64,000 nucleotides of DNA, taken from positions 372,001-436,000 of the forward strand of contig NZ_JAFV01000001.1 in the NCBI RefSeq assembly GCF_000526315.1, written 5' to 3'. Below are positions 3,171 to 43,138 of this stretch, in pieces. The first letter of the stretch is position 1; each line of letters begins with the position of its first letter. Under the pieces are notes generated by a model. That model worked only from the letters and a program-made list of their open reading frames with translations. It was not told the origin of the DNA and ran no database searches. This DNA is from Methylopila sp. 73B. Its GTDB lineage: Bacteria > Pseudomonadota > Alphaproteobacteria > Rhizobiales > Methylopilaceae. The position numbers were made by a program, and so were the translations under genes.

Positions 3171-3262
3171 TCGGAATGCACCATAAACCCCTTGCTTTTC
3201 CGCACCTTAAAGCCATACTCCCCGCATAGGGAATAAGCCCCGTCACGTTTATGGAGCCAGCC

Positions 3263-3595
3263 ATGGCCGCGAAAACTGACTACAGCAGCATGTCGATCGC
3301 CGATCTTCAGGCGCTTTCCGATGAGGTGTCTGCCGCCCTTGAGGCGAAAAAGGATGAGCGGCGTCAGGAATTGCTGAAGGAGCTGGAAGCGCTGGGCGGT
3401 TCGCCGAAGTCCGCGACGCGGCGGACGGCTGACGAAGGGACCGGCACCACCAGGCCGAAGCCGGGCGCGAAGTACCGCAGCAAGAAAAGCCCCGACGTGA
3501 CGTGGACCGGGCGCGGGGCGCTCCCCAACTGGCTTAAGGCCGAAATGGAAGAGACTGGCGAGACGGACAAGGAAGCGTTCCGGATTGCTGCGTAA
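3263..3595 (+). CDS. H-NS-family nucleoid-associated protein, phage-borne
   Basis: 110 aa from ATG 3263, with GGAG six bases upstream; the longer in-frame start at 3251 would place that GGAG inside the gene. Residues about 8-45 form the coiled-coil oligomerisation region (SIADLQALSDEVSAALEAKK). A flexible linker follows, then the C-terminal DNA-binding domain with the family loop TWTGRGALPNW (80-90). H-NS proteins bind AT-rich DNA and silence it; a phage copy may control its own AT-rich accessory genes or interfere with host xenogeneic silencing. It is first in the rightward direction from the 3.1-kb promoter region and is followed by a terminator. Confidence 0.85.
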   Translation: MAAKTDYSSMSIADLQALSDEVSAALEAKKDERRQELLKELEALGGSPKSATRRTADEGTGTTRPKPGAKYRSKKSPDVTWTGRGALPNWLKAEMEETGETDKEAFRIAA

Positions 3596-17883: not shown

Positions 17884-18438
17884 ATGAAAGCGAAGGTTAT
17901 GCCTGGGGGGCGACCGACCAAGTATTCACCGAAACTGGCTGCGGCCCTGTGTGCGGACATAGCCTACTGCCCTGAGGCTGAAAAGGGGCTGAAGGTGCAT
18001 GAGGCCTGCGCGAAACACGGCTGCTCTGTGTCATCGTTCTTTTTGTGGCTGGTGGAATATCAAGAGTTTTCGGAAGCCTACGCGCACGCACGCGAAGCCC
18101 GTTTTGAGCAGCTGGCTGAAGAAACCCTCGTTATACCTGACGCAATTCCGGACACGGCCTATTGGGAGCTGGCGGATGGCCGCAAGGTGCCAAGCCTGCA
18201 GGGGCTGGAAGATGACGAGACGAAAGGTGCCAAGCTCAAGTTTCTGAGCAAGGAAGTGGTGATGAAGGCGCAGCTGCAGGTGCTGTCGCGCCAATGGTAT
18301 TTGGAAAAGCTGGCTCCGCACCGCTTCGGCAAGAAAGTTGCCCTGGAGCATGCCGGGAAAGACGGCGGGCCGATCAAGTCCGAATCCACCGTCCAGTTCT
18401 ACATGCCCGACAATCAGCGGGATGCTCCGTCTGAGTGA
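17884..18438 (+). CDS. terS: Terminase small subunit
   Basis: 184 aa. It starts with PGGRPTKYSPKLAAALCADI, the G-R-P-x-x-Y opening typical of TerS-like proteins, followed by a helix-turn-helix (HEACAKHGCSVSSFFLWLVE) for recognising the packaging site. A central oligomerisation helix region and a charged C-terminus follow. It overlaps terL by 4 nt. It selects phage DNA and delivers it to TerL. Confidence 0.85.
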   Translation: MKAKVMPGGRPTKYSPKLAAALCADIAYCPEAEKGLKVHEACAKHGCSVSSFFLWLVEYQEFSEAYAHAREARFEQLAEETLVIPDAIPDTAYWELADGRKVPSLQGLEDDETKGAKLKFLSKEVVMKAQLQVLSRQWYLEKLAPHRFGKKVALEHAGKDGGPIKSESTVQFYMPDNQRDAPSE

Positions 18439-19796
18439 TTATCCGGCCGCACCCGGGTCCGCAGGAAGCGTTCCTCTCCACCGCGGCTGACATCGCAATC
18501 TACGGGGGGGCAGCTGGCGGGGGTAAGACCTGGGCTCTCCTGATGGAGCCGGTCCGGCACATCGGCAATCCCAACTTCGGCGCTGTGTTCTTCCGGCGCG
18601 AGACACCGCAGATCACGAACCAAGGCGGTCTGTGGGACGAAAGCCAGAAGATCTACCCGCACCTCAAAGCGCGTTCGATTGAACAGCCGTATCAGTGGAA
18701 GTTCCCATCTGGTGCCAAGGTGACGATGACGCACCTGCAGCACGAGAACGACGTGCTGAACTGGCAGGGCTCGCAGATCCCGCTCATTCTTTTCGATGAG
18801 CTGACGCACTTCACCCGCAAGCAATTCTTCTACATGCTCAGCCGGAACCGCTCGACGTGCGGCGTCCGGCCGTACATCCGCGCCACCACCAACCCTGATC
18901 CCGACAGCTTCCTCTATGACAGCACGGGCAAGGGGCTTGGGCTGATTGACTGGTGGATTGGACCTGACGGCCTGCCCATCCCGGAGCGGTCCGGCGTCAT
19001 CCGCTGGTTCGTGGTCATAAACGACACGCTGCGGTGGGCGGACAGCCGGCGGGCTCTGGTGGAGGAATACGGGGAAGACGCAGAGCCCAAGAGCCTGACG
19101 TTCATTTCCTCGAAGCTGACCGACAACAAGATCCTGATGGAGGCCGACCCCGGCTACCTGGCGAACCTGAAGGCGCAGACAGAGGAACAGCAGCAGCGCC
19201 TCCTGCACGGCAACTGGAAGTTCAAGGCCGAAGGCGGCCTGGTGAAGCGTAAGCACCTGCGGCACCTGAAGCCTGGCGAGCCGCGGCCGGACATGGTGCG
19301 CATCGTCGTGGCCATCGACCCGTCCGTAACCGCCAACAGCGCGAGTGCGGAGTGCGGTATCACCGTCCAGGGCAAGGGTGTGGATGGCCTGGGCTACCTC
19401 ATCGACGACCTGAGCGGTGTCCTGAGCCCTGCCGAGTGGGCAAACCGTGCCGTCAACGCCTACCGGCATTATCAGGCCGACGCCATCGTGGCTGAGGTGA
19501 ACAACGGCGGGGATCTGGTCGAGCGGAACATCAAGGCCGTCGATCATGGCGTGAACTACAAGGCGGTGCGCGCCACACGGGGCAAAATCATCCGTCTGGA
19601 ACCGATTGCCGCCTTTTACGAGCGCGGACAGATCGTCCACTGCCAGCACTTCGATAAGCTGGAGGGGCAGCTGTGCAGCTACAACCCCGAAATAATGGAT
19701 AAAAGCCCCGACCGCATGGATGCGGCTGTTTGGGGCTTTACGGAACTGCTACTATCAGGGAATAATGCGCAACAGATTAAACTGAGAGGTTTATAG
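18435..19796 (+). CDS. terL: Terminase large subunit (packaging ATPase/nuclease)
   Basis: 453 aa, GTG start overlapping the terS stop. Walker A YGGAAGGGKTWALL (about 23-36), Walker B IPLILFDELTHF (about 115-126), and the RNase-H-like nuclease domain opening with VAIDPSVTA (about 289-297) and a later Asp in SPDRMDAAVWG. It hydrolyses ATP to drive DNA into the prohead and cuts concatemers. All motor and nuclease landmarks are present, so the protein looks functional. The next gene is the portal. Confidence 0.95.
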   Translation: MIIRPHPGPQEAFLSTAADIAIYGGAAGGGKTWALLMEPVRHIGNPNFGAVFFRRETPQITNQGGLWDESQKIYPHLKARSIEQPYQWKFPSGAKVTMTHLQHENDVLNWQGSQIPLILFDELTHFTRKQFFYMLSRNRSTCGVRPYIRATTNPDPDSFLYDSTGKGLGLIDWWIGPDGLPIPERSGVIRWFVVINDTLRWADSRRALVEEYGEDAEPKSLTFISSKLTDNKILMEADPGYLANLKAQTEEQQQRLLHGNWKFKAEGGLVKRKHLRHLKPGEPRPDMVRIVVAIDPSVTANSASAECGITVQGKGVDGLGYLIDDLSGVLSPAEWANRAVNAYRHYQADAIVAEVNNGGDLVERNIKAVDHGVNYKAVRATRGKIIRLEPIAAFYERGQIVHCQHFDKLEGQLCSYNPEIMDKSPDRMDAAVWGFTELLLSGNNAQQIKLRGL

Positions 19797-19807: not shown

Positions 19808-21256
19808 ATGCCGGTTGATACCACGCATGCCCTCTACGACAAGTACGGTCCGACATGGGCAAAAATGCGTGATGTGGTTGCCGGGCATGACGCCATCCAA
19901 AAGGGTGGCGAGAAATACCTGCCAAAGCTGAGCGACCAGGAAGAGGACGAGTATAAGATATACCGTGAGCGGGCCACATTCTTCGGCGCGACCGGCCGGG
20001 TGGTCGATGCGTTGAGCGGTATGGTGTTCCGCAAGAAGCCCGACATCGAAGACGCCAAATCGATCAAGCCCATGCTGGACGACATGACCCTTTCAGGGGT
20101 GCCGTTCGATCAATTCGCAGAGCAGCTGATTGAGGAGGTGCTGACGGTCACGCGCACCGGCGTTCTGGTCGACCACCCTCAGGTGCAGCGGCAGGATGGG
20201 GAGGTCATCACCCTGCAGCGTGCCGAGAAGATGGGCTATCGGGCCTACGCGACCATTTACAAGACAGAGGACATCATCAACTGGCGCATGACGCGCCGTG
20301 GTGGCCGCTCCATCCTCGGTCTCGTGGTTCTGCGGGAGGTCGCCGAGACGGTGAAGGCTGGCGACCTCTTCGCCCTGGAGTGCAGCGTGCAGTACCGTGT
20401 CCTGCAGCTGGACGAGAGCGGCTTATACACCCAAAGCCTCTACACGGCCGGTGCGAACAACCAGCTGGTCGAGGAAGTCATCGGCTATCCGCTGGTCAAC
20501 GGTAAGCCGCTGGACGAAATCCCCTTCACGTTCTTCGGTGCGCAGGGGAATGAGCCGGACCCGGAACAGCCGGCGCTGTACGACCTGGCTGTGGTCAACA
20601 TCAGCCACTATCGCAAGACGGCCGACTACGAGCACGGCCTGCACTTCACCGGCTTGCCCACTGCCGTCATCAGCGGCGTGAGCGCCACGGACACCACGTA
20701 TTCCATCGGGTCGGCCAAGGCGTGGGTCTTCAGCGATGCGAACGCCAAGGCGGTGTATCTGGAGTTCACGGGGCAAGGCCTCGAAACCATGCGCAAGGCC
20801 ATTCAGGACGATGAGCTGAAGATGGCCGCGCTGGGTGCCCGCATGCTTTCGCCGGACAAGAAGGCGGTCGAGACAGACGAGGCCATGAGCAACAAGCGCT
20901 CGGGTGAAACCGGGTCACTTGCCTCGATGGCCAACGCGGTGAGCCGGGGCCTGACCCGCGTGCTCGGTCAGATGGCGCTGTGGGCGGGCTCGTCTGAAAA
21001 GCCGAAAGTTCGGCTGAACACCGACTTCAACCCCGGCGATATCAGCCCGCAAGCGATCACCGCCCTGCTGAGCGCGGTTGTGGCCGGCAAGCTGAGCGCC
21101 GAAAGCTTCTACGAGGCGCTGGTGAAGGGGGAAGTCATCAGCGGCAACCGCACCTTCAGCGAGGAACAGGCACAGATTGACGACGATCCCGACCTGGCTG
21201 GGCAGCCGGTGAAGGCGGCGAACGACGACGGGGCTGCCGTGAGTGCCGCGGCCTAA
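19808..21256 (+). CDS. Portal protein (DUF4055 type)
   Basis: 482 aa, ATG six bases after AGAAAGC. N-terminal YRERATFFGATGRVVDALSG followed by MVFRKKP and a long alpha/beta body (VTRTGVLVDHPQVQRQDGEV) match DUF4055 portals. The C-terminal region is helical and Ala-rich. The protein forms the dodecameric gate at the capsid vertex where TerL docks and the tail joins. The position directly after terL fits. Confidence 0.85.
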   Translation: MPVDTTHALYDKYGPTWAKMRDVVAGHDAIQKGGEKYLPKLSDQEEDEYKIYRERATFFGATGRVVDALSGMVFRKKPDIEDAKSIKPMLDDMTLSGVPFDQFAEQLIEEVLTVTRTGVLVDHPQVQRQDGEVITLQRAEKMGYRAYATIYKTEDIINWRMTRRGGRSILGLVVLREVAETVKAGDLFALECSVQYRVLQLDESGLYTQSLYTAGANNQLVEEVIGYPLVNGKPLDEIPFTFFGAQGNEPDPEQPALYDLAVVNISHYRKTADYEHGLHFTGLPTAVISGVSATDTTYSIGSAKAWVFSDANAKAVYLEFTGQGLETMRKAIQDDELKMAALGARMLSPDKKAVETDEAMSNKRSGETGSLASMANAVSRGLTRVLGQMALWAGSSEKPKVRLNTDFNPGDISPQAITALLSAVVAGKLSAESFYEALVKGEVISGNRTFSEEQAQIDDDPDLAGQPVKAANDDGAAVSAAA

Positions 21257-22268
21257 TGAGGATCTAGCCGAAGCGCTGCGCATCCGCCTGCTGGCGCTGC
21301 TGCGGCATCAGGTGACGGTCCACACCGAGATCGAGCGCTACCTCACCGCTCTGGACAAGGCCATAGCGGCACAAATCATTGAGTTCGCCCCAACGTCGGT
21401 CACCCATGAGGTTTACCGGCAGGAGAGGCTGGCAAAGCTGCTGGCGGCCGTTGCTGCGCAGGTTTCGGCTTCGTACCGGGACATCCGGCGCTACCACGTC
21501 AACGAAATGGCCGATCTGGCGCAGGTGGAAGCCCTGTACCTGACACGGCAGGTCAACGAGGTTGTCGGCCGGGATCTGCTCGCCTTCGCGCTCCCTGCCG
21601 CCGAAGCTGTGGGCCTCGTCCGGTCCACGCTCGTCTCCGGCGCGCCCATGGCGGACTGGTGGGAGGGGCAGTCGGTCGCCGCTCGGGATGCCTTCAACCA
21701 GATGATGCGCATTGGCGTGCTGGGCGGGGAATCCGACGCGGATCTCATCAAGCGCGTTCGCGGAACCCGCGAGATGGCTTTCAAGGACGGCCTGGTGGAA
21801 GTCTCCCGTCGCCGGGCCAAGCTGCTCGTGCGCGGTGCCAGCAGCGCCATCACCGGGGCAGTCCGCAAGAAGGCGGTGGAGGACAACCCGCGCGTCTTCC
21901 GGGGAATTCAGCAGATCAGCGTGCTCGATGGCCGTACCTCTCACACCTGCATCTCGTATGCCGGGAAGGTCTGGACCGTTCCTGATTACAAGCCGGTGGG
22001 TCACAAGCTGCCGTACAACGGCGGAACCCCGCGCCACCCTGGCTGTCGGTCAACCGAAATCGCCGTGCTGCAGGAGAAGTGGGGCGGTGCGCCGGCGGAT
22101 GATATGGACTTCGACACGTTCCTGTCCGGCAAGTCTCCGGAGTTCACAGACCAGCTTTTAGGGAAAGGCCGGGCGGAGCTGTACCGCGCCGGTAAGATAA
22201 CCCTGGCCGATCTGGTGGACCAACGCGGCCGACCTTTAACGCTCGAACAGCTTAAAGCCAGTCATTGA
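21243..22268 (+). CDS. Minor head protein (phage Mu F / SPP1 gp7 type)
   Basis: 341 aa, GTG start overlapping the portal stop. A helical N-terminal two-thirds is followed by the conserved C-terminal block LDGRTSHTCISYAGKVW, then GTPRHPGCRS. The paired Cys and His/Pro signature is that of the Mu F-like/SPP1 gp7 minor head family. It is packaged in the head in small number and is thought to aid DNA ejection or portal incorporation. Confidence 0.85.
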   Translation: MPRPNEDLAEALRIRLLALLRHQVTVHTEIERYLTALDKAIAAQIIEFAPTSVTHEVYRQERLAKLLAAVAAQVSASYRDIRRYHVNEMADLAQVEALYLTRQVNEVVGRDLLAFALPAAEAVGLVRSTLVSGAPMADWWEGQSVAARDAFNQMMRIGVLGGESDADLIKRVRGTREMAFKDGLVEVSRRRAKLLVRGASSAITGAVRKKAVEDNPRVFRGIQQISVLDGRTSHTCISYAGKVWTVPDYKPVGHKLPYNGGTPRHPGCRSTEIAVLQEKWGGAPADDMDFDTFLSGKSPEFTDQLLGKGRAELYRAGKITLADLVDQRGRPLTLEQLKASH

Positions 22269-23036: not shown

Positions 23037-24035
23037 TTGGCAACGACTGTTATTACCGATACCCGCCCATATGACGTGCTCATGGCGACCGCGTTCTATG
23101 AGCGCATCACCCAAAACACGAACGCGTTCAATGCCGCCTCAAACGGCGCGCTGCGCCTTCTGAACCAGGGCCTGACCGGCGACTACGAGAAGCAGGCGTT
23201 CTTCAAGAACGTGTCCGGCATGACCCGCCGCGATGACACCAGCGTCGCCTCCGTCACTGCGATCAAGCTGACGATGGATGAAAACATCAGCGTCAAGGTC
23301 AAGCGCAAGTTCGGCCCGATTGACGCGACCCGCGACAGCTTCCGCAGTATGGGTATGGACCCTGACGAAGCTGCCGTGCTGGCCGGTCAGCAAATGGCCG
23401 ACGAAACCCGGCAGGAAATGCTGAACACCACTGTAGCTGCTCTGACGGCTGCGATGGCTGGCCAGTCCGACATCGTTTACGACGCTGCCGCGATCGCCTC
23501 CGGGGTGACTGCAAATATTCTAAACCACGCCAACATGAACAAGGCCCTCGCCAAGCTCGGTGATGCCTCGTCCAACGTGAAGCTGTGGGTCATGAACGGC
23601 GCGTCCTATCACGCCCTGATCGGCAACTCGCTGAGCGACATGACGTTCAACGACAGTGGGATCTCCATCTACAACGGTGGTGCCCCGACCCTGGGTCGCC
23701 CGGTTCTCGTGACCGACATCCCGGCGCTGAACATCTCCACCACCGGCTACAACATCCTGGGCCTCCAAGATGCTGCCGCAATGATGAAGGTGTCGGAAGA
23801 TCCCGAGGCTGTCGTTGAGACCGTTACCGGCCTCGAAAACCTTGTGACCCGGTTCCAAGGTGAGAGCGCCTACAACATCCAGCTCAAGGGCTTCAAGTGG
23901 GACATCACCAACGGTGCCCGCAACCCGTCTGCTGCTGCTGTTGCGACCGGCACCAACTGGGATAGCAACGTCACCAGCTTCAAGAGCCTGCCCGGCGTCT
24001 TGCTGAAGGTGGACATCACCGCTAACGCCTCCTAA
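23037..24035 (+). CDS. Major capsid protein
   Basis: 332 aa, TTG start seven bases after GAAAGA. The gene follows the scaffold by 4 bp. The body contains beta and helical segments in the order expected of an HK97-fold coat (FFKNVSGMTRRDDTSVASVT, ARDSFRSMG-like helix, LNTTVAALTAAMAGQ, VKLWVMNGASYHALIG, VLVTDIPALNISTTGYNILG). The family is that of coat proteins found with DUF4055 portals. It is the most abundant virion protein. Confidence 0.85.
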   Translation: MATTVITDTRPYDVLMATAFYERITQNTNAFNAASNGALRLLNQGLTGDYEKQAFFKNVSGMTRRDDTSVASVTAIKLTMDENISVKVKRKFGPIDATRDSFRSMGMDPDEAAVLAGQQMADETRQEMLNTTVAALTAAMAGQSDIVYDAAAIASGVTANILNHANMNKALAKLGDASSNVKLWVMNGASYHALIGNSLSDMTFNDSGISIYNGGAPTLGRPVLVTDIPALNISTTGYNILGLQDAAAMMKVSEDPEAVVETVTGLENLVTRFQGESAYNIQLKGFKWDITNGARNPSAAAVATGTNWDSNVTSFKSLPGVLLKVDITANAS

Positions 24036-27395: not shown

Positions 27396-29513
27396 GTGGC
27401 GCAATCGCTTGACGCTCTGATTGTTGAGCTACGCGCAGACATAAAGGGCTTCCAAGCCTCGCTTGCTACCGCTACCGGCGACATTCAACGCTTCAGCGGT
27501 TCCTCCACAAAGCACATCGGCGGCATTCAGGCTGCAATCGAACGCGCCCGCATGGCGGTGGTGGCGTTCGGAGGTGCCTGGGCAGCCTTCAGCATCGGCA
27601 AGGGCATTATCGACGCGGGTGTGCAGGTGGAAGCCCTGCGCAACAAGATGATCGCCGCCACCGGCAGCACGACTGTCGCCGCAGACGCCCTGGCCTTTAT
27701 CCGTGCGGAAGCTGACCGGCTCGGCCTTTCTATTCAGGTGGCCTCTGACGGCTTTGCCGGGTTTGCGGCGTCCTCCCTCCGCGCGGGCCTGACGCTGGAC
27801 GAAACCAAGCAGATCTTCACCGGCGTCAGCGAGGCGGCAGTGTCCATGCGCCTCTCCGCGGAACAGACCGGGCTGGTGTTCAAGGCGCTCGAACAGATCG
27901 CGGGCAAGGGCACCGTGAGCATGGAAGAGCTGCGCGGCCAGCTTGGAGATTCCGGTCTCTCGGGCGCGTTTGAGATCGCTGCTAAGTCCATGGGAAAAAC
28001 CACGGCCGAGTTTACCAAGATGGTTAGCAACGGAGAGGTGATGTCGGCGGACTTCCTTCCGAAGTTCGCGGCACAGATCCGCAAAGATCTTGGCGGCAGT
28101 GTCGAGGAAGCCAGCCAAGGCGCTCAGGCGGCGTTTAACCGGCTCGGCAACGCGTTCTTCGATCTTCAGACAAAGCTTGCTGCCAGCGGCTTGCTGGATG
28201 TGGTGGTCCGCTCCATCAAGGATCTCACCGACGCCTTGAATGACCCTGGCCTGATCTCGGGCCTGTCGTCGTTCGTCCAGTTGCTGAGCAACGTGCTGAA
28301 TATCGCGCTGCGGGTGGCCGGCGCAATCGGCACCGCGGTCTCCGCCATCAACTCCGCTACCGAGGCGGTGGGCAATTCGATCTTCGGGGGCCTGTTCGGG
28401 AAGGAAGGCACTGACGCCATCAACAAGGCGCGTGGGGCACGCAATCAGGCGGCGGCGACGGTCGGGGCTACTCCTACTGCCGCACCTGTGGCGAGTTCCT
28501 ACACGCTCGGGACCAAGGCGGTGGCCCTGCCTAACGCGGGAGCGGCACGGAAAGCAAAAACGGCTGCGGACCGGGCCGCGCGGGAGCGTGAAAGCCTCTC
28601 CGGCCGGGTCGATAGCGTCTATGCGGCCAACTCGAACGACACCGACCGCATGCGCCTGGCTTACGCGGAAGACCAGAAGATTCTGGAGGAGGCGCTAGAG
28701 AAGAAGGCCATCACGCAGCAGCGCTACAACGAGGTGATGTCGAGGATCGAGATCGAGTTCGACAAGAGCATGAACGACTACCGTGTGGACAAGTTCGGCA
28801 CGGACATCGAGCAGGAGCAGGAGCGCTTTGAGGAGCGCAAGGAGCTGCTGCTACAGGGCCTCGATGACCGTCTCATCACCGTGCAGGAACACCATGAGCT
28901 GCTGGAGGAAGCGGAGCGCGAGCACAACGAGCGCATGCTTGAGCTGCAGAACCAGGCGAATGAAGACCGGCTGACAGAGGCGCAGCGGGGTCTGCAGGGC
29001 TTCCTCGGCGTACAGCTGGCATATCAGCAGAAATCCGCCGCACAGGAAGGCGCGAGCTTCCGGAATTCGCTGCAGCAGCTCGCGCAGCACAACAAGACAG
29101 CGTTCATGGTCGAGAAGGCTGCTGCCCTGGCACAGGCGCTGATCTCGGCGCGCCAGAGCGTGGTGGACGCCTACAAGTTCGGAAATAAGATCGGCGGGCC
29201 GGCGCTCGGGGCGACGTTCGCCGCGGTCGCTGCGGCTGCCCAGGCGGCGAACATCGCGGCTATTGCCTCAACGTCGTACGGCGGCGGAGGCGGCAGCGTG
29301 GGCGCGTCTGGTGGCGGCGGGGGTGGGTCGGGCGGAATGCCTTCACCGGCCGAAGCGGAGACCCCCAGCAAGGATGCCGTGCAGCGCTCGGTCTACATCA
29401 CCGTGAACGGCGACGAAGATACGCTTTTGAGCAAGCGCACAGTGCGCAAGCTCATTGATCAGCTGAACGACGCCTTTGGCGATGGCTCCCAATTAAAGGT
29501 GGCTTTCGCATGA
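27396..29513 (+). CDS. Tail tape measure protein
   Basis: 705 aa, GTG start seven bases after GAAAGC. The N-terminal domain (LRADIKGFQASLATATGDIQ, LRNKMIAATGSTTVAADALA, LAFIRAEADRLGLSI) is the tape-measure N-terminal family, including the MEELRGQLGDSGLSGAFEIA segment. Hydrophobic stretches lie around 280-350. A long charged coiled coil (about 420-560, EERKELLLQGLDDRLI) is followed by a Gly-rich C-terminus. Its length sets tail length; at about 1.5 A per residue a tail near 100 nm would be expected. Confidence 0.9.
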   Translation: MAQSLDALIVELRADIKGFQASLATATGDIQRFSGSSTKHIGGIQAAIERARMAVVAFGGAWAAFSIGKGIIDAGVQVEALRNKMIAATGSTTVAADALAFIRAEADRLGLSIQVASDGFAGFAASSLRAGLTLDETKQIFTGVSEAAVSMRLSAEQTGLVFKALEQIAGKGTVSMEELRGQLGDSGLSGAFEIAAKSMGKTTAEFTKMVSNGEVMSADFLPKFAAQIRKDLGGSVEEASQGAQAAFNRLGNAFFDLQTKLAASGLLDVVVRSIKDLTDALNDPGLISGLSSFVQLLSNVLNIALRVAGAIGTAVSAINSATEAVGNSIFGGLFGKEGTDAINKARGARNQAAATVGATPTAAPVASSYTLGTKAVALPNAGAARKAKTAADRAARERESLSGRVDSVYAANSNDTDRMRLAYAEDQKILEEALEKKAITQQRYNEVMSRIEIEFDKSMNDYRVDKFGTDIEQEQERFEERKELLLQGLDDRLITVQEHHELLEEAEREHNERMLELQNQANEDRLTEAQRGLQGFLGVQLAYQQKSAAQEGASFRNSLQQLAQHNKTAFMVEKAAALAQALISARQSVVDAYKFGNKIGGPALGATFAAVAAAAQAANIAAIASTSYGGGGGSVGASGGGGGGSGGMPSPAEAETPSKDAVQRSVYITVNGDEDTLLSKRTVRKLIDQLNDAFGDGSQLKVAFA

Positions 29514-33908: not shown

Positions 33909-34265
33909 ATGAGCAACGCCAACGACACCGCCCGTCTCACTCGCATAGAGAGCCTGCTTGATGAACTGGTCGGCACCGTTTCCTCCGGCTTCGGAGAGTT
34001 GAAGGGCGTCCCCCAGCGCCTGCAGGTGCTCGAAGCGGCCACAACGCGCATCGACACGACCATGGCGGCGCTAATCGGCACGACGACACGTCAGGAACTC
34101 AGAGCGGACGGCCTCGAAAAGCGGATCACCGACGTGGAGCGCATTCAGGCCACCAACCTGGCCCGCGTTGAGGGTGCCTGGTGGCTTAGCAGCAAGTTTG
34201 TGGCCGCGATCGGCGGAGCTGGTGGCGTGGGTGCCTTCGTGTCGTGGCTACTGAGCCGTCAATGA
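33909..34265 (+). CDS. Coiled-coil protein with C-terminal membrane anchor, lysis region
   Basis: 118 aa. A long coiled coil (about 8-85, LTRIESLLDELVGTVSSGFG, ADGLEKRITDVERIQATNLA) is followed by a C-terminal hydrophobic helix (FVAAIGGAGGVGAFVSWLL). This is the layout of XhlA-like proteins that work with holin and endolysin. The stop overlaps the endolysin start. It could be an accessory holin. Confidence 0.6.
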   Translation: MSNANDTARLTRIESLLDELVGTVSSGFGELKGVPQRLQVLEAATTRIDTTMAALIGTTTRQELRADGLEKRITDVERIQATNLARVEGAWWLSSKFVAAIGGAGGVGAFVSWLLSRQ

Positions 34266-34849
34266 CAACCGCCCGTGCCCGCGCCTACGCCCTGCAGCAC
34301 ATCATCATCCGCGAGCGCGGCTATTCCGACCGCGCAACCGACCGGGGCGGCAAGACGAAGGACGGGATCACTGAGCGCGTCGCCCGTGGGAAGCCCTGGT
34401 TCTACAAGGGCGACATGCGTGAGCTGCCGGACGAGCTGCGGGATCGCATCTACCTTACCGATTACTGGCACAGCCTGAACCTCGATGCGGTCGCCGCGGT
34501 CATGCCCGTGCTGGCGGTTGAGATCTGCGATGCCGGGGTGAATTGCGGAGTGTCCTCAGTCGGGCCGTGGCTCCAGCGGAGCCTGAACGCGTTGAACACT
34601 TACAACAAGAAGGCCGGGAAGTTCCTGTACGGCATGGATCTGAAGGTAGACGGCAAGATCGGTCCAGCCACCATTCGCCGTCTCGAACAGGTAAAGTCAC
34701 ACCGGGGCGCGGATGGGCAGCGCGTGCTGGTGGCCATGGTCGAAACCCTGCAGGGCAACCGCTACATGAACCTGGCCGACGACGTGACCCAGCGCGACTA
34801 TACCTATGGCTGGTTCGTTAATCGGATTCTTGACGAGGTTCCGGCTTAG
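34262..34849 (+). CDS. Endolysin, GH108 N-acetylmuramidase with peptidoglycan-binding domain
   Basis: 195 aa from ATG 34262. The N-terminal GH108 domain has IIIRERGYSDRATDRGGKTK with the catalytic Glu at 18 and the conserved D-x-G-G-x-T-x-x-G-I-T run. The C-terminal part (LKVDGKIGPATIRRLEQVKS, then NRYMNLADDV) matches the PG_binding_3 domain normally fused to it. There is no signal peptide, so export needs a holin. It cleaves cell-wall glycan at lysis. Its sequence looks intact. Confidence 0.9.
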   Translation: MTTARARAYALQHIIIRERGYSDRATDRGGKTKDGITERVARGKPWFYKGDMRELPDELRDRIYLTDYWHSLNLDAVAAVMPVLAVEICDAGVNCGVSSVGPWLQRSLNALNTYNKKAGKFLYGMDLKVDGKIGPATIRRLEQVKSHRGADGQRVLVAMVETLQGNRYMNLADDVTQRDYTYGWFVNRILDEVPA

Positions 34850-34881: not shown

Positions 34882-35127
34882 ATGCCGACGTTCGCGCTCA
34901 AAGCAATTGCCGAGATTGCCTCGAAAACCATTTACATGCTCTTGGCCCTGTTCATCATAGGCGGTTCAAGCCGGGTGGCCGAGTATTTCGAGATCAAGCC
35001 GGTGCAGGACGCCCTGAAGGTCGTCGACGGCGTGCTGATTCAAGAGCGCGCCACGGTGATTGCCCAGGGTCCAACCTTCGTCACCAGCGACACCACCGTA
35101 ACCACGTCGGCCACCGCCGCCGAGTAA
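34882..35127 (+). CDS. Small membrane protein in the lysis cassette
   Basis: 81 aa, ATG six bases after GAAAGC. One hydrophobic helix at about 14-32 (ASKTIYMLLALFIIGGSS) and a Thr/Val-rich C-terminal half likely outside the membrane. Between endolysin and spanin genes it is a holin or holin-regulator candidate. The single span makes a pinholin-like or antiholin role possible. Confidence 0.5.
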   Translation: MPTFALKAIAEIASKTIYMLLALFIIGGSSRVAEYFEIKPVQDALKVVDGVLIQERATVIAQGPTFVTSDTTVTTSATAAE

Positions 35128-35555
35128 TGGCGCTGCTGCTCCGCTACTGGTCGCAGATCCTCGCCGCCGTCATCGGCGGCCTGCTGGTGTGGTTCGTCCA
35201 CACCATGCTGCGGGACGTAGCGGAGATCCGGCACGCGCAAGCCATGGAGGCGCAGCAAAAGTCGCTGGTGGCCGAGTGCGCCGCGTCTAAACAGAAATCA
35301 CAGGAAGCCTTCAATGATTTTCAGAAACGCCTTGATACTCGGGATGGCGAGCTTGCTGCTGCTCGCCGGCTGCTCGCGGACCGTCCAACAGTCCTTATCC
35401 GCCGACCTGCCGGGCAATCTGGCCAAACGGCCCCAGCCGGTGAGCATGGTGCAGCGGATGGTGTGGATACTGGAACCTTCCTCGACTTTGCCGGTGAGTG
35501 CGAAGGCTACCGGCTTCAGGTGAGCGGCCTGCTCGACTTCGTGGGGGCGCGGTGA
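35127..35555 (+). CDS. Inner-membrane spanin (Rz-like)
   Basis: 142 aa; its start overlaps the previous stop. N-terminal membrane anchor (about 8-25, WSQILAAVIGGLLVWFVHTM) and a periplasmic helical domain (EAQQKSLVAECAASKQKSQE, DFQKRLDTRDGELAAARRLL). The layout is that of Rz-type i-spanins. A lipoprotein gene lies wholly inside it in the +1 frame (35314-35523), as with lambda Rz/Rz1. Together they fuse inner and outer membranes in the last step of lysis. Confidence 0.8.
   Translation: MALLLRYWSQILAAVIGGLLVWFVHTMLRDVAEIRHAQAMEAQQKSLVAECAASKQKSQEAFNDFQKRLDTRDGELAAARRLLADRPTVLIRRPAGQSGQTAPAGEHGAADGVDTGTFLDFAGECEGYRLQVSGLLDFVGAR
35314..35523 (+). CDS. Outer-membrane spanin lipoprotein (Rz1-like), embedded in Rz
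   Basis: 69 aa. Signal peptide MIFRNALILGMASLLLLAGC ends in the lipobox LLAGC with the lipidated Cys at 20; the mature part is about 50 aa with Pro and Val. AGGAAG lies six bases before its ATG. The frame is +1 relative to the Rz gene and is completely nested in it. Lipobox, nesting and neighbours make the call firm. Confidence 0.85.
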   Translation: MIFRNALILGMASLLLLAGCSRTVQQSLSADLPGNLAKRPQPVSMVQRMVWILEPSSTLPVSAKATGFR

Positions 35556-36012: not shown

Positions 36013-36951
36013 TCATTCCGCCGCTTCCAGCCGGTCCAGCTCCTCCTCCAGCTCGTCAACGTCGCTCTGCTCTGTCGAGCGGATGAACGTGACGGCCTGG
36101 CTGGCGTAGCTGGCGGCCGTAAAGATCGCCCGGCTGTCGTTTTCCAGCACCTTGATCCAGCTTGCGATGTACTGAGCTGAACGGAAGGTGGCCGGGACGC
36201 CATGAGTTGCACATAGATAGGCTGCGCCAAGCTCGGCGACCAGCTCCTCCGCTGCGTACTTCTCGTCTCCGAACCGCTTGCCGAACTCCCGTGACAGACG
36301 CTCCTTAGCGCCGGTCCAGTGGACTGTTTCGTGAGACAGGGTGCCGAAGAAGCCTTCAGCGTCCTTGAACGTCTCATAGGGCGGCATGACGATGATGTCG
36401 CGGTTGGGCAGATAGGCGGCCTTGTTGCCCCGGTACTCGATCTTGGCTCCGGTGGCGACGATGCAGCGCATGAGCTGGTCCTGCGCCACGCTCTCGGGAA
36501 TGGTCCCGGAAGGCCCGGCGAGGGTTTCCGGCAAGCCGTCGCACTGGTCCACGTTGAAGACGGAATAAGCGCGGGTCTGGGGGATCTTCCGCACCGTGCC
36601 GTCTTCCTCAGTCTTCTCCTTAAACCGGACAAAGGTGATGCCGGTGGCCTTTTCACCTTTGCGGACGCGTCCCCCTGCCTTCTAGCACTGCTGGTAGGTG
36701 AGCCAGCCGTTTGACGGATACCCACACAATTCGCGCGCAATCCAGAGAATGAGGATGTTGGCCCCGCTGTAAGGTCTGGCGGAAATGGCGTTCGCAGGTA
36801 CGATACCGATGCCGTTCCTTTTTGAAACGACCCAGGGACGTGTCCAAGTCGGGACCCCTTCTTTGAGGTGGTTGATGATCTGCTGGGTGACGCTCTCATA
36901 AAGGGCGTCGATCTTTCGCGGACGTGAGTCTGCATTCGTTGTGTGGCTCAT
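36013..36951 (-). pseudogene. ardC: ArdC-type antirestriction protein, interrupted by an in-frame TAG
   Basis: One continuous frame encodes both ArdC domains. The N-terminal ssDNA-binding domain runs from ALYESVTQQIINHLKEGVPT to WLTYQQC. The C-terminal zincin metallopeptidase carries HETVH (in TLSHETVHWTGAKERL) and ELVAELGAAYL. A TAG (minus strand, 36682-36684) follows QQC, where homologues read straight through into K-A-G-G-R-V-R-K-G-E-K. No frameshift is needed, only the stop. ArdC-type proteins protect incoming plasmid DNA during conjugation. The gene is either dead, suppressed, or split into two products (restart at MRKIPQTRAY, 36594). It sits beside the coupling protein, divergent from it. 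Confidence 0.8.
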
Positions 36952-37010
36952 CGCCAAGCACTCCGCTAAAAGGTTAAGATATTTAAGGATTAACGGAGGA
37001 ATACTAACCG

Positions 37011-38525
37011 ATGTGGGGCGTAATCAAAATAGCGACGCTACCCTTTTGGGGTCCGCCGTACCTCGTCGGTAAAACCGTTCTTGAATCGTCGCGCTTTATT
37101 CAGGGTAAGATCGGGCGGGGAAAGGTGGAAAACACCTATTCTCATGGAGACGCGCGCATCGCAACACCCGCGGATATTAAGCGGGAGGGTCACCTGCCGT
37201 ATCACAACGGCGGCGTGTTCATCGGGCAGACCGACGTTCCGAGACTGTTTGGCAAGACCAAAATGAGCATCTACTCACACGAGGATGACGGCGTTTGCAT
37301 CTTCGGCGGACGTGGTGCCGGAAAGTCGCGGTTCATTTCGAGCGATATTTTTCAGATGGAGTTTTGGCCCAAAAGTAAACCGCGTACTGACATCATTGTC
37401 CTAGATGCCGCCGGGGAATTTGAGGGATTACACCGGGCCGAGCTGGAGCGTCTGGGGTACAATGTTATCTTGATAACCCTCGAAGATCCCAAGATGGGGA
37501 TGAAGATCGATCCGCTGGCATCTCTGGATAAGGACAGTGCGACTTTTGAGATCGACACCGAGGCGTTTTGCCTGAGCGTCATCCCAAAAACAGGCGACCC
37601 GCGGAATGAGCACTTTTCCGACGTGCCGCGCGGCCTACTTGCGGGTGCGATCAGCTATTACCTTCACAAAAAGCCCGATACGCCGCTGATCGACATTCTG
37701 CAGTCCATCTTCAAGTCGCGCGATGGGCTCAAGGCCGAGACCGAGAAGTGGCAAGAGCTGAAAGGGGATTACAGCGTCCTGAATGCCCTGACGCTCGCGG
37801 AGACTATCGGCAAGAATGAGTATGGCAGTTTTATTTCCACAATGAAGGTTGCTTTGCGGCCGTTCCAAACCCGCCATTGGTGCAAGCTGACGGAGCGAAA
37901 TCCCGACAGCTGGAACTTCACCAAAATGTATAGGGGTGACCAGCCGACAGCGGTATTCATCCGAACAATGGGCGATCAAAGCACGGTCGGCCCCCAGGTG
38001 CGCATGCTTATCAATAATGCCGTGCGTGAGAGGATTAACCTCGGCCGATACATCAAGGACCGCCCCCGGGGCAAGATTGCCTTCAAGCGACCGCTGCGCA
38101 TCTACATTGACGAGGCCGTAAACCTCGGAAACTCCGAAGGCGTGAAGCGTGGGCAGAATGAGCTGCGCAAGGCCGGCGTCACACTGGTAATGGCTTGGCT
38201 CGACCATAATGAAATGTCCCATACCTACCGGGACAGCCCGTCATTCATGAGCGGGTGGACGCAGATATTCTCAAGTGGAATTACCCATTACGGAACCCTG
38301 CAATACATATCGCAGATGTTTGGTCAGGGGACCTATATCGGGGAGACGACTAGCCAGAATGACTACGGTCAAAGCCGAAGCTATCACGAATATGGTGGAA
38401 AGGTGCTCCAGCCGGACGCCGTGCGCCGGGTGACGGAAGATGAATGGCTGGTACTAACCCGAAGACTTTCCATCCGGTGCTGGAAAACGTCCGTGGAGCG
38501 GAACGGGCATATTCTCTACGGATAG
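37011..38525 (+). CDS. VirD4/TraG-like type IV coupling protein
   Basis: 504 aa. The N-terminal part has one weak hydrophobic stretch (IKIATLPFWGPPYLVGKTV), then HGDARIATPADIKREGHLPY and GGVFIGQ, matching the G-S/D-A-R-W/I-A opening of TraG/VirD4 proteins. Walker A is GGRGAGKS (99-106); Walker B is RIYIDEAVN (about 362-370). These hexameric ATPases bring relaxase-DNA complexes to a type IV secretion channel. No mating-pair genes are present in the window, so a helper channel would be needed. The gene is convergent with the relaxase gene, 3 bp apart. A phage role in DNA injection cannot be excluded, but none is known. Confidence 0.85.
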   Translation: MWGVIKIATLPFWGPPYLVGKTVLESSRFIQGKIGRGKVENTYSHGDARIATPADIKREGHLPYHNGGVFIGQTDVPRLFGKTKMSIYSHEDDGVCIFGGRGAGKSRFISSDIFQMEFWPKSKPRTDIIVLDAAGEFEGLHRAELERLGYNVILITLEDPKMGMKIDPLASLDKDSATFEIDTEAFCLSVIPKTGDPRNEHFSDVPRGLLAGAISYYLHKKPDTPLIDILQSIFKSRDGLKAETEKWQELKGDYSVLNALTLAETIGKNEYGSFISTMKVALRPFQTRHWCKLTERNPDSWNFTKMYRGDQPTAVFIRTMGDQSTVGPQVRMLINNAVRERINLGRYIKDRPRGKIAFKRPLRIYIDEAVNLGNSEGVKRGQNELRKAGVTLVMAWLDHNEMSHTYRDSPSFMSGWTQIFSSGITHYGTLQYISQMFGQGTYIGETTSQNDYGQSRSYHEYGGKVLQPDAVRRVTEDEWLVLTRRLSIRCWKTSVERNGHILYG

Positions 38526-38528
38526 GTG

Positions 38529-40154
38529 CTATCGACTCCGATCGTATTTGTCGTCGCGCTCCTCAAGCAATTCGTCAAAAAGCTCTGCCTTGGCACGCTC
38601 GCCCAGACAGTGAAGGGCTCCGCGGAACTCGCCATCGGTGATCTGTCCCCGGCTGTGCATTTCCTCCAGCATGTCCACAGTTATCCCCTCAAGGCTGTCG
38701 TGGACACCGGCACCAAGCATCTGCTCGGCCCGCGCCATTTCCTCCTCGCTGCCCATCAGCTCGAACTTCGACTGGAGTTTCTGGGTGACCTCCTCCTCGC
38801 GGGCAGCGCGCCGCTCCTCGGCCTTGCGGAGGGCTTCAACCTCATCCGAGCGCTTAGTCAGGCGTTCCTCGGCCTTCTGAAGCGCATAATCGGTCTCACC
38901 TTTGGCTTTAATGGCGCGTTCCGCCCTCCTTCGCGTGGGGGACCGAAAGCCGAGAACAGTGAAGCCGCGCGGCTCGCCGTTGCGGGTGTACCGGGCGTGC
39001 GCGTCCACGGCTTCCAAATAAGCCTGGTCCGCCGCATTGCGATCCGCCATGGCGGCGAAGTAGTTGGCCGACGCCAGCTTGGCCTCCCTCTCAAGGCTTT
39101 CTTTCTGGTCCTTAAGACGCTGGATCTCCGCCCGTGTTTCGCGCAGAAACTCGTGGTCCCGAGCGAACCAGAGGGCGTCCCGCACTCGCTGATCATTAGG
39201 GCGCTCCGGCCCGTCGTATTTCGTGCCCGCCACTGGGTCCTCCGCGGCTGAAGGGGGTGCCAATTCCTCCACCTCCTCGTCAGGTGCGGCAAGGTGCTCT
39301 GCGGGTGCATGCGGGTGCAGCTCCGGCTCGTCCTCGACGATTTCGGGCGCTTCGATAGCCTCGTCCTGCGCCAGTGCAGGGGCCTCCTCGCGCTCAACCT
39401 CCTCCGGCATCACGATAGGCTCCGGCGTTTCGATGCCGAATTCCTCGGGCGTTGGTGGCTCCTGAACGTCTCCCTTGCGCAGCTCGGCAAAGATGGACTC
39501 GGCCTCAAGCTTCAGCCGAGCCTGGCGCTCCTGAAGCTTCTCGTATTCCTCCTTGGCGAGCCTCTGACGGCCTTTCTCCAAACCCTGCTCAAGGTTGCTG
39601 CGCCGGTCTATCCGGACCTCCAGACCCTGTTCCGCGAGGACACCGTTGCACTCCAACTCCCACAGTTGTCGGAGCCATTCGGTGGAGTTCGGCTCTAGCC
39701 CCTTCGCGGCCCGTTCCTTGGCTTTGGCGGAGAGCATGGCAACTGATTTGCCGGTGTCCTTATCCCGATCGATGAACAGGATGTGGGCGTGCGGATTCGC
39801 AGTCTCCAAGTCATGGAAAAACGCGGCCACCCGACCGCGCCCCTGCATGGAGAGGGACCAAATAAATCGGCGTGTGGCTTCAACTTGGGCTTCCCGAGGC
39901 GCCTGCACCGGCAGCGCCACCATGACCTTGTACGCGAGCCGTGCATCCTTCCGGCTGGTCGCGGTGATGTGCCGCTCGTAATCCCGCAAAGCCCTTTGCA
40001 GGGCGTGTCTATTCTGCGGCAGGTTAACCGAGATGATGAGGTCGCAGGCGGATTGTCGCGCGCAGTATTTGGCGTGCGCGTTAATCGTGCCGGGCGAGTG
40101 GTCCCGGCGGTTAATGTTGCTCAGATCGAGCCAGTAATAGCCCTTCTCTGGCAT
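38529..40154 (-). CDS. mobA: MobA/MobL-family relaxase
   Basis: 541 aa. The N-terminal 150 residues form the relaxase domain: INAHAKYCARQSA with the candidate catalytic Tyr 30, DARLAYKVMVALPV, and the metal-binding block FFHDLETANPHAHILFIDRD with His 114, 122 and 124 (the H-x-H motif III). Residues 190-300 are acidic and Pro-rich. The C-terminal half is a long charged coiled coil (RAEIQRLKDQKESLEREAKL), with no helicase or primase motif. The enzyme would nick one strand at oriT and lead it to the coupling protein. An inverted repeat lies 25 bp upstream of its start. Confidence 0.8.
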   Translation of the reverse strand: MPEKGYYWLDLSNINRRDHSPGTINAHAKYCARQSACDLIISVNLPQNRHALQRALRDYERHITATSRKDARLAYKVMVALPVQAPREAQVEATRRFIWSLSMQGRGRVAAFFHDLETANPHAHILFIDRDKDTGKSVAMLSAKAKERAAKGLEPNSTEWLRQLWELECNGVLAEQGLEVRIDRRSNLEQGLEKGRQRLAKEEYEKLQERQARLKLEAESIFAELRKGDVQEPPTPEEFGIETPEPIVMPEEVEREEAPALAQDEAIEAPEIVEDEPELHPHAPAEHLAAPDEEVEELAPPSAAEDPVAGTKYDGPERPNDQRVRDALWFARDHEFLRETRAEIQRLKDQKESLEREAKLASANYFAAMADRNAADQAYLEAVDAHARYTRNGEPRGFTVLGFRSPTRRRAERAIKAKGETDYALQKAEERLTKRSDEVEALRKAEERRAAREEEVTQKLQSKFELMGSEEEMARAEQMLGAGVHDSLEGITVDMLEEMHSRGQITDGEFRGALHCLGERAKAELFDELLEERDDKYDRSR

Positions 40155-40178
40155 GTTAACAGATATACCCTTGCCCTG

Positions 40179-40210
40179 GGGTTGTTGGAAACAACCCGTA
40201 GATGGGCACT
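40179..40210. other. Candidate origin of transfer (oriT) next to the relaxase
   Basis: Perfect 8-bp inverted repeat GGGTTGTT/AACAACCC (40179-40186 and 40190-40197) with a 3-nt loop is followed by GTAGATGGGCACT (40198-40210). Hairpin plus adjacent short nick region just upstream of the relaxase gene is the MOBQ arrangement. The 13-mer resembles the RSF1010/R1162 nick region as remembered (about 9 of 13 positions). An operator for the relaxase gene is an alternative. Confidence 0.45.
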
Positions 40211-40272
40211 ATACATGCTTTTGCCTTCTTCGCGCCTGTTGCGAGGGTGCATCTCGGTGCCAAGCACCGCTG

Positions 40273-41761: not shown

Positions 41762-42133
41762 GTGGAATATTCCGAGCGCCAAGCCATGCGGGAAGCGGTT
41801 GCCATAGAGCACGGCATCGTCCTGTTCCGTTCTTACGGTGAGCAGGAAGCGGCCGCCATTCTCGACTGTGACTATACGACCCTGAAGCGTTGGCGCAGGG
41901 CAGGGAAGATACCGTTTGTCTCGCGCGGAGACGGTGGGGTTAAGTACCTCGGCATCCACCTCTGCGATTACCTGATTTTCGGGACAGAGGCGGTCAAGCT
42001 ATGGCTGAGTTCACAATCGGAGAATACGCCCTCGGACAGCGAAGCGGCTCCGACGCCTGGTATCGCGTCTGGTACGACAAAGCCTCAAAGTCCAGCAAGC
42101 GCGTCAGCTTGGGCACGTCAGACTTTGAAATAG
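41762..42133 (+). CDS. xis: Excisionase-like MerR/HTH protein
   Basis: 123 aa, GTG start. A helix-turn-helix at about 27-52 (EQEAAAILDCDYTTLKRWRR) followed by AGKIPFVSRGDGGVKYLG is the excisionase/MerR-type winged HTH that reads 'A-x-x-L-x-v-s-x-x-T-l-x-r-w-x-x-x-G-x-i-P'. The last 45 residues overlap the integrase start and are Ser/Pro-rich, so probably unstructured. It would bend attachment-site DNA and favour excision over integration. Co-transcription with int is implied by the overlap. Confidence 0.7.
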   Translation: MEYSERQAMREAVAIEHGIVLFRSYGEQEAAAILDCDYTTLKRWRRAGKIPFVSRGDGGVKYLGIHLCDYLIFGTEAVKLWLSSQSENTPSDSEAAPTPGIASGTTKPQSPASASAWARQTLK

Positions 42134-43089
42134 CGCGCACGCGCCTGCTGGAATGGTATTACGCCAACCATAAAATGCCTGCGGGGTTTTCAAAGCCCGG
42201 CGACGTGGCGCTGGCGGAGGTCATTCTAGACTACTGGAACCACCACGGCTCCAAGCTAGTGTCCGGTCCAACTGTGAAAATCCTGCTCCGCCAGTGGAAT
42301 GAGTTCTGGGGCGATGCGACCATTCAGGACGTGCGGGACGTAAACCGCCAGGAGGAGTTCCACGAATTCCTCCGGCTTCACGGCTACTCCGCAAACAGCA
42401 TCAACAGGGTGGTGGAGATTGGCCGGGCGGCAATCCGCCGGGCATGGAAACGCGGTGTTATCGACACCTGTCCGTATATTCAGACGGTGAAGGGGGAATA
42501 CGACAAGCCGCTTGGTCGACCACTGACGCTTGATGAGCTGCGGGCCTACTACCGGGGCAGCGAAGAACGCCACTGGCAGGACTTCTTCCTGCTGGTGCTC
42601 GGAACCGGCTCACGGCCCAAGGCGATCATCACGCTTGAGAAGCGGCAAATCGACTTCGGGGAGGGGCTGGTGTTCCTCAACCCGCAGGGAAGGCGTCAGA
42701 CGTCCAAATTTCGTCCCACGGTCAAACTCCCGCCGACGCTCGCGGAACGCTTCACAGGCCGTCCTGAGGGCCGCCTGATCTGGTTCCATGGCCGGGAGGT
42801 GGGGAAGATGGACAACATCATCCGGCTGGCCCGGCGCAGGGCAGGGCTGGATGACCAGGTGAACGCCTACAGCCTTCGCCACACCGTTGCCCGGTATCTG
42901 AGGCAGCAGGGCGTGGACACGGCGGAAATAGCCTGCCAGCTCGGGCATCTCCGCTTTGGCCACGACATGACGCTGCGGTATGCTCCGCACGCGCCGGACT
43001 ACCTGGCCAAGAGTTGCGCCGCGTTGGAACAGCTGCTGCAGGACGTTCTCGCGCCAACGTCGCGCCACAAGCTCCGAAAAGCGGCGTAA
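42001..43089 (+). CDS. int: Tyrosine-family site-specific integrase
   Basis: 362 aa. The N-terminal arm-binding and SAM-like core-binding domains (to about 165) are followed by the catalytic domain. Catalytic residues seen: Arg 205 (GTGSRPKAI), Lys 236 region (QTSKFRPTVKLP), Arg 293 (YSLRHTVARYL, with Tyr replacing the usual first His), His 316 (LGHL) and Tyr 327 (MTLRYAPHAP). The gene ends 20 bp before attR, the usual place. It recombines attP with the 3' end of ldtR. The protein looks active. Confidence 0.92.
   Translation: MAEFTIGEYALGQRSGSDAWYRVWYDKASKSSKRVSLGTSDFEIARTRLLEWYYANHKMPAGFSKPGDVALAEVILDYWNHHGSKLVSGPTVKILLRQWNEFWGDATIQDVRDVNRQEEFHEFLRLHGYSANSINRVVEIGRAAIRRAWKRGVIDTCPYIQTVKGEYDKPLGRPLTLDELRAYYRGSEERHWQDFFLLVLGTGSRPKAIITLEKRQIDFGEGLVFLNPQGRRQTSKFRPTVKLPPTLAERFTGRPEGRLIWFHGREVGKMDNIIRLARRRAGLDDQVNAYSLRHTVARYLRQQGVDTAEIACQLGHLRFGHDMTLRYAPHAPDYLAKSCAALEQLLQDVLAPTSRHKLRKAA
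43049..43067 (+). repeat. Tandem TCGCGCCA pair, candidate integrase arm site (right)
   Basis: TCGCGCCA at 43049-43056 and 43060-43067, inside the 3' coding end of int and 43-61 bp from the attR core. It mirrors the pair at 1120-1137, so in the circular phage the core would be flanked on both sides. The function is inferred. Confidence 0.4.
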
Positions 43090-43109: not shown

Positions 43110-43138
43110 GGACCGACCAGATCCGTTTCCGTCTCTGA
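43110..43138. other. attR, carrying the displaced original ldtR 3' end
   Basis: 29 bp, 25/29 identical to 1006-1034 with the exact 10-bp core GGACCGACCA. Read in frame it encodes TDQIRFRL and stop, as does attL, but with the host-like codons CAG, CGT and CGT. It is therefore most likely the chromosome's original gene end. Confidence 0.8.

Follow-up and report, generated by a model that had tools for sequence, protein, structure and literature searches.

Phages and conjugative elements are usually regarded as separate routes of gene transfer. Here, we analyzed a 64,000-nucleotide stretch of the genome of Methylopila sp. 73B (contig NZ_JAFV01000001.1, positions 372,001 to 436,000; hereafter the window), in which a tailed prophage carries, next to its integrase gene, genes of the kind that mobilise plasmids. 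The closest described systems each share part of this arrangement. MOBQ (RSF1010/IncQ-type) plasmids, e.g. p.3 of Rhizobium sp. X9, possess a MobA/MobL relaxase and a hairpin with a nic-like site; the hairpin lies 112 nt before the relaxase tyrosine in p.3 and 111 nt in the window, and a type IV coupling protein (T4CP) gene is nearby in both. The plasmid differs in its plasmid replication genes and in the lack of annotated virion genes over the stretch shown, and the similarity between the two relaxases is limited to about residues 21–213. Integrative mobilisable elements (IMEs) likewise contain an integrase, a helix-turn-helix (HTH)/xis-like gene, a relaxase, and a site resembling an origin of transfer (oriT), with no VirB4 found; unlike them, the element described here adds the virion, packaging, and lysis set of a tailed phage. 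CloDF13, as presented in PMC11389934, is likewise helper-dependent with its own T4CP but is a plasmid rather than a phage. P1-like phage-plasmids with mob genes or oriT also unite phage genes and mobilisation in one element; according to PMC10879196, however, they are episomal, and their mobilisation resides mainly in derivatives without phage genes rather than in a conserved cassette adjacent to an integrase. The reported transfer of prophage Phi1207.3 of Streptococcus pyogenes fits the definition of conjugation (PMC4260502), but the word "relaxase" is absent from the main text of that paper, which calls the mechanism unknown. We found no description of such a cassette in the open-access literature on relaxases, coupling proteins, ArdC, prophages, and phage-plasmids, subscription papers and preprints being outside the scope. 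As far as searched, the parts are known, and what is new is their conserved combination with phages of several types.

At 35.9–43.1 kb of the window lie ardC (−), a VirD4/TraG-type ATPase gene (+), a MOBQ-type relaxase gene (−), an HTH gene (+), and a tyrosine integrase gene (+) (Table 1). This block probably serves a temperate tailed phage as its cassette for integration and mobilisation, and a helper type IV system could pass the excised phage circle on by conjugation. An earlier note, made from the letters of the stretch alone, had placed an interrupted ArdC gene, a coupling ATPase with Walker A and B motifs, a MobA/MobL relaxase with candidate Tyr and H-x-H motifs, and a hairpin resembling an oriT inside a tailed prophage. 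Matches to Pfam and PHROGs families bore out this arrangement, which turned out to be larger than noted, with 15 elements. The Pfam assignments were made by hmmscan with matches over the curated cut-offs: both ArdC domains, both coupling-protein domains (T4SS-DNA_transf and TraG-D_C), MobA_MobL for the relaxase (57.9 bits against a cut-off of 26.7), and Phage_integrase for the integrase. The T4CP family profile matched TrwB at 2.6e-10 with Walker A and B kept, and PF02534 and PF12696 were matched by all six T4CP family members. PF03389 was matched by five of the six relaxase family members, and the relaxase family profile matched MobA (2ns6, 9e-12) and NES (4ht4, 1.2e-9). The two proteins hence fell in the coupling-protein and relaxase families, a placement that the note had left to profile comparison. 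A structure model of the relaxase made without an alignment had a mean predicted local distance difference test (pLDDT) score of 55 and was not used. The HTH protein is a possible excisionase, judging from its family matches.

The integrase sits at one end of an element bounded by two copies of a 10-bp core, GGACCGACCA, which occurs in the window solely at these two positions. In two congeners (G235 and G142), the empty site joins window base 1034 to 43110, with an overlap of about 29 bp. The element is inserted at the 3′ end of a gene (522–1034) named marR-like by eye rather than by family search. A full match to the integrase was found in 1 of 13 genomes of the genus, namely this one, and one other genome gave a weak match of 29%. 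In addition to the integrase, the attachment (att) sites, and the empty site in relatives, the element contains terminase, portal, major head, tail, and lysis genes, as expected of a temperate tailed phage (phage gene names were taken from PHROGs matches). The surroundings of the cassette are a tailed prophage, apparently of the siphovirus type. No PHROGs family matched 35127–35555, after the endolysin, and the placement of a holin and a spanin there is without family support. With its own integrase and mobilisation genes and no mating-pair channel, as judged by the VirB4 family only, the element resembles an IME; an IME is not itself a phage, whereas here the virion set lies inside the same att-bounded element.

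The order and orientation of the five genes were common to 15 elements in local hidden Markov model scans, namely the window (IMG/VR record G777), 12 other IMG/VR records (G827, G828, G829, and G844 to G852), Jiella pelagia, and Agrobacterium rubi. The earlier note had allowed that the block might be confined to this genome, but it recurs in the same order in 14 other elements. These relatives were detected via a profile that included plasmid relaxases, and T4CP and integrase profiles added more. The integrase profile yielded 15 viral loci, and all five genes were present in 12 of the 12 with an identity of at least 37%. The remaining loci were rejected as cassettes: L270 and L271 (integrase 33%) had the HTH and integrase genes, while the relaxase, T4CP, and ArdC were not found, and L272 (25%) had none of the sought gene pairs. 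A plasmid-seeded profile gave 32 loci on genome contigs, two of them with five genes. Single-protein scans of IMG/VR with the T4CP and the relaxase returned only the same provirus, and the T4CP scan of genome contigs gave no match. The T4CP was matched in 27 of 397 genomes of the order (best other, 42 bits), its profile in 48 of 385 genomes of the class (best other, 121 bits vs 687 here), and the relaxase in 17 of 385 genomes of the class; the cassette is thus rare in the sampled genomes. In INPHARED, three T4CP queries returned 2, 5, and 0 records, all at 20–26% identity, so the search yielded no isolated phage whose T4CP is close. Relatives of the terminase were too distant for testing the block: viral loci besides the same provirus matched one or two window open reading frames (ORFs), and the four best terminase-relative genomes matched one to four. 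PF03389 was scanned in 50 of 58 terminase-bearing records, many of them fragments (L094, L095, L096, L097, L099, L104, L105, and L107 were omitted), and exceeded its cut-off solely in the window's own provirus. A MobA match of 11.3 bits in the terminase relative L063, below the cut-off, was judged to be chance since it maps to 1221–1424, within the terminase ORF (213–1583).

The virion modules that accompany the cassette vary. The terminase profile found a match in 10 of the 13 cassette-bearing viral records; among those it missed, G829 has a terminase and a portal of other families, G844 has a partial terminase and an amidase nearly identical to that of G829, and G846 is a 19.7-kb fragment with a tape-measure relative. 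The portal belongs to phrog_145 in the window (with a phrog_979 large terminase), phrog_156 in G827 and G828, and phrog_12082 in G829. G849 matches 25 of 50 window ORFs, covering the head-tail block from the terminase small subunit through the tail, and then carries the cassette at the same end. The earlier note had pointed to related prophages with the same flanking lysis and integrase genes; G849 provides the homologous virion module followed by the cassette, but the window lysis ORFs had no match in it. The integrase of G828 is followed by short ORFs judged phage-like by eye. In G850, a terminase lies about 13 kb past the integrase on the same strand, which is the gene order of either a non-integrated phage genome or tandem prophages. 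The A. rubi TR3 element (L210 with L247), about 27 kb long, lies between marR-like and YkuD genes at an insertion site of the same kind as that of the window. It retains the cassette and H-NS-like, replication-like, terminase-small-like, and early genes, and it may be a deletion or satellite-like derivative.

These contexts bear on the possibility that the cassette is a separate IME, lying beside or inside phages and serving itself alone. Its integrase, HTH, relaxase, T4CP, and ArdC genes are content of the IME type, tandem IME-prophage arrays are on record, as described in PMC5704250, and the Jiella phage has a second integrase. PF00589, however, gave one match each in G777, G827, G828, and G829 (4 of the 13 cassette-bearing viral records), leaving the cassette integrase as the sole tyrosine recombinase found there; the att core is present in the window only twice, at the outer ends; and G849 shares the window's layout. 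Furthermore, the phage genes of G850, including the terminase, come after the integrase, so that phage and cassette form one unit there. We therefore regard a separate IME as unlikely.

The oriT-like site lies directly upstream of the relaxase gene and resembles in form the published oriT of RSF1010, so that the relaxase is accompanied by the hairpin and subsequent nic sequence expected, by sequence, of a MOBQ cognate oriT. The published RSF1010 substrate is given as hairpin-CGGTAAGTGCG/CCC in PMC4814116, and the match of the window nic-like sequence (9 of 13 positions) was reached by 0.0045 of shuffles. By analogy, the nick would fall at 40206/40207 (+ strand of the window), and the integrase side would then lead in transfer. 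When 39 hairpins per strand were scanned, two window sites were followed by at least 9 of 13 RSF1010 nic matches, the second being at 18738–18758 (−), inside the terminase gene. An IUPAC pattern for oriT had no match in the window. A perfect hairpin of at least 7 bp within 240 nt before the Tyr codon was found in 12 of the 15 elements, where random windows drawn from these loci gave an expectation of 1.9, and one hairpin per element ends 111–147 nt before Tyr. Among plasmid and genome loci with related relaxases, 22 of 34 were scorable and 16 had some hairpin vs 5.1 expected. Eight of them had a GGGTTT..AAACCC-type hairpin 97–129 nt before Tyr, and the strand after it reads ATAAGTGCGC in seven and AAAAGTGCGC in one. 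The corresponding sequence is ATAAGTGCAC in G828, TAACTGCGC in six phage elements, and GTAGATGGGC in the window. The summed RSF1010 nic match of 13 elements was above all 2000 shuffles, and singly it was at or below 0.024 in 12 of the 13; this test was run without G846 and G848, and the 6-bp hairpin of Jiella, under the 7-bp cut-off, was chosen by eye. A blind scan of all hairpins recovered the site in 9 of the 15 loci with two off-target matches. Pair counts on the hairpin arms were dropped as a test, as the arms had been selected as perfect hairpins. PLSDB types the p17 plasmid (L141) and p.3 (L145) as non-mobilizable despite an annotated MobA/MobL relaxase and a type IV secretion system DNA-transfer protein; Marinibacterium anthonyi pLA6_010 (L140), also typed non-mobilizable, has MobA and TraG-like genes and an annotated Cas9.

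An RSF1010-like oriT next to the relaxase also argues against a further explanation, namely that the relaxase and the ATPase are repurposed for phage DNA replication, genome resolution, or intracellular DNA movement and not for conjugation. Conservation across phages would equally fit such a core role, as would the lack of a VirB4 match in the host genome. The phage, however, has its own replication-initiation-like gene and terminase, the T4CP carries the TraM-recognition domain of TraD/TraG, and replication needs neither ArdC nor a T4CP, which makes this explanation improbable.

The catalytic residues were present in all 15 elements: Tyr and HxH of the relaxase, GK[ST] and DE of the T4CP, HExxH of ArdC (scored in the window from the C-terminal piece), and R/R/H/Y of the integrase. 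The ratio of nonsynonymous to synonymous substitution rates (dN/dS) was 0.14, 0.23, and 0.35 for the relaxase and 0.01, 0.09, and 0.17 for the T4CP in pairs with dS below 1.6; seven pairs were compared per gene, those with dS of 1.6 or more were saturated, and two of the three relaxase pairs include the truncated G829 copy. Judging from these values, the cassette genes are under purifying selection. Protein distances were correlated between T4CP and ArdC (0.82), relaxase and T4CP (0.69), relaxase and ArdC (0.69), and the integrase and the others (0.48–0.50), each value being reached by 0 or 1 of 2000 permutations (Mantel test). G829 and G845 (L253, L257) share 83% identity in the T4CP and 85% in ArdC but 41% in the integrase and 33% in the relaxase, suggesting that single parts of the cassette are swapped but that the set as a whole is retained. 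That the genes are a decaying, plasmid-derived passenger caught in prophages, without present function, is very unlikely: the window has a broken ardC and the G829 relaxase contains a transposase gene, but dN/dS is well under 1 in close pairs, the catalytic residues are kept throughout, and the gene order is retained even though T4CP identity to that of the window is just 22–29%. Least probable of all is that the coupling protein and relaxase serve to block the mating channels of rival conjugative plasmids, since, although the set is conserved under purifying selection and the T4CP is short and, in the window, weakly hydrophobic at its N-terminus, such a function would not require a catalytic relaxase that has an oriT-like site of its own beside the integrase in every member.

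The features are those required for mobilisation by a helper (for excision, nicking, coupling by a protein of its own, protection, and re-integration), and the following course is proposed. The integrase, probably with the HTH protein, would excise a 42-kb circle. The MOBQ relaxase would nick the RSF1010-like oriT upstream of its own gene and stay joined to the DNA end, and the phage's own coupling ATPase would dock the resulting complex on the mating channel that a conjugative plasmid or integrative and conjugative element in the same cell provides. After passage of the single strand to the recipient, ArdC (intact in the relatives) would shield it and the integrase would insert it anew. Virions would be the second route. 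This is in essence what the earlier note had suggested, and family placement, recurrence including that in G849, and the form of the oriT lend support to its interpretation.

Several observations weigh against this proposal. The ardC of the window is one frame (36013–36957, −) with a single in-frame stop at codon 92 of 315 that divides the N-domain from the zincin domain, and this copy is probably non-functional; in the 14 other elements, ArdC is a single uninterrupted frame of 294–354 codons from stop to stop. The N-terminus of the window T4CP is weakly hydrophobic, with a best 19-residue hydropathy of 0.96 vs 1.1–2.2 in ten relatives (G846, G847, G848, and G851 were excluded as the wrong stretch was scored). 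In G829 (L192:4247–5884), a transposase gene (phrog_688) splits the relaxase into two pieces. The nic match of G844 is at chance (0.46), the blind hairpin scan misses the site in G829, G844, G846, G848, Jiella, and A. rubi (6 of 15), and the plasmid relaxases closest by sequence (L140, L141, and L143) have no RSF1010-like site in the stretch examined. The Jiella cassette adjoins a sheathed myovirus carrying a second integrase and, for this reason, may be a neighbour of that phage. Among the window genes tested, none for capsid or tail matched in the A. rubi element. The Mantel tests were uncorrected for shared ancestry. The VirB4 family (PF03135) had no match in the host genome, other type IV genes not having been sought; the control search gave a match in 1 of 14 genomes. 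Finally, the sequences show family membership, retained catalytic residues, a conserved gene set and order, purifying selection, an oriT-like site, one integrase in each of four viral records, and differing virion modules, whereas all the biochemical steps (nicking, coupling, excision, and packaging), the helper, and the transfer are inferred.

Two further genes were observed. An H-NS-like gene (3251–3595) lies near attL and has relatives in G849, G850, and the A. rubi element. Outside the window, the host genome has a second terminase-like match (G000:C1:1853761–1854297; 40% over residues 267–443), which may belong to a gene transfer agent.

Table 1. Features of the prophage and its cassette, in window coordinates.
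Feature	Position	Strand	Evidence
Whole integrated element	1006–43119		about 42.1 kb; two 10-bp core copies and empty sites in two congeners
attL core GGACCGACCA	1006–1015	+	exact core match
Replication-initiation-like phage gene	6465–7304	+	phrog_270, 3.3e-12
Terminase small subunit	17884–18438	+	phrog_1482, 1.7e-27
Terminase large subunit	18435–19796	+	phrog_979, 1.3e-131
Portal protein	19808–21256	+	phrog_145, 2e-135
Head morphogenesis protein	21243–22268	+	phrog_241, 2.5e-70
Major head protein	23037–24035	+	phrog_247, 1.3e-45
Tail tape measure protein	27396–29513	+	phrog_2335, 5.3e-57
Endolysin	34244–34849	+	phrog_315, 1.6e-35
ardC, C-terminal (zincin) piece, same frame, HExxH kept	36013–36594	−	MPTase-PolyVal, 1.3e-45
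ardC, N-terminal piece, ends at in-frame stop	36682–36957	−	ArdcN, 1.1e-20
VirD4/TraG/TrwB-type coupling ATPase (T4CP), 504 aa	37011–38525	+	T4SS-DNA_transf, 4.6e-19; TraG-D_C, 6.2e-9
MobA/MobL (MOBQ-type) relaxase, 541 aa, Tyr30 and H122/H124	38529–40154	−	MobA_MobL, 1.7e-15
oriT-like site: hairpin (40179–40197) and nic-like GTAGATGGGCACTA (40198–40211)	40179–40211	+	9/13 matches to RSF1010
HTH protein	41762–42133	+	HTH_17, 4e-7; phrog_66 (excisionase and regulator), 1.4e-5
Tyrosine integrase	42001–43089	+	Phage_integrase, 1.7e-10; phrog_1, 9.5e-34
attR core GGACCGACCA	43110–43119	+	exact core match

On balance, we lean towards a so far undescribed dual-route class, in which temperate tailed phages with several unrelated types of virion have in common a selectively maintained integration-and-mobilisation cassette and would leave the lysogen either inside capsids or, led by a relaxase, as single strands that pass through a helper channel; a derivative like that of A. 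rubi may persist as an IME after the loss of capsid genes. The finding also provides a concrete oriT candidate and a relaxase for assays with purified protein. If the proposal is true, some temperate phages would reach receptor-less cells through a mating channel, and the way in which host range and gene flow are inferred from virus genomes would change.

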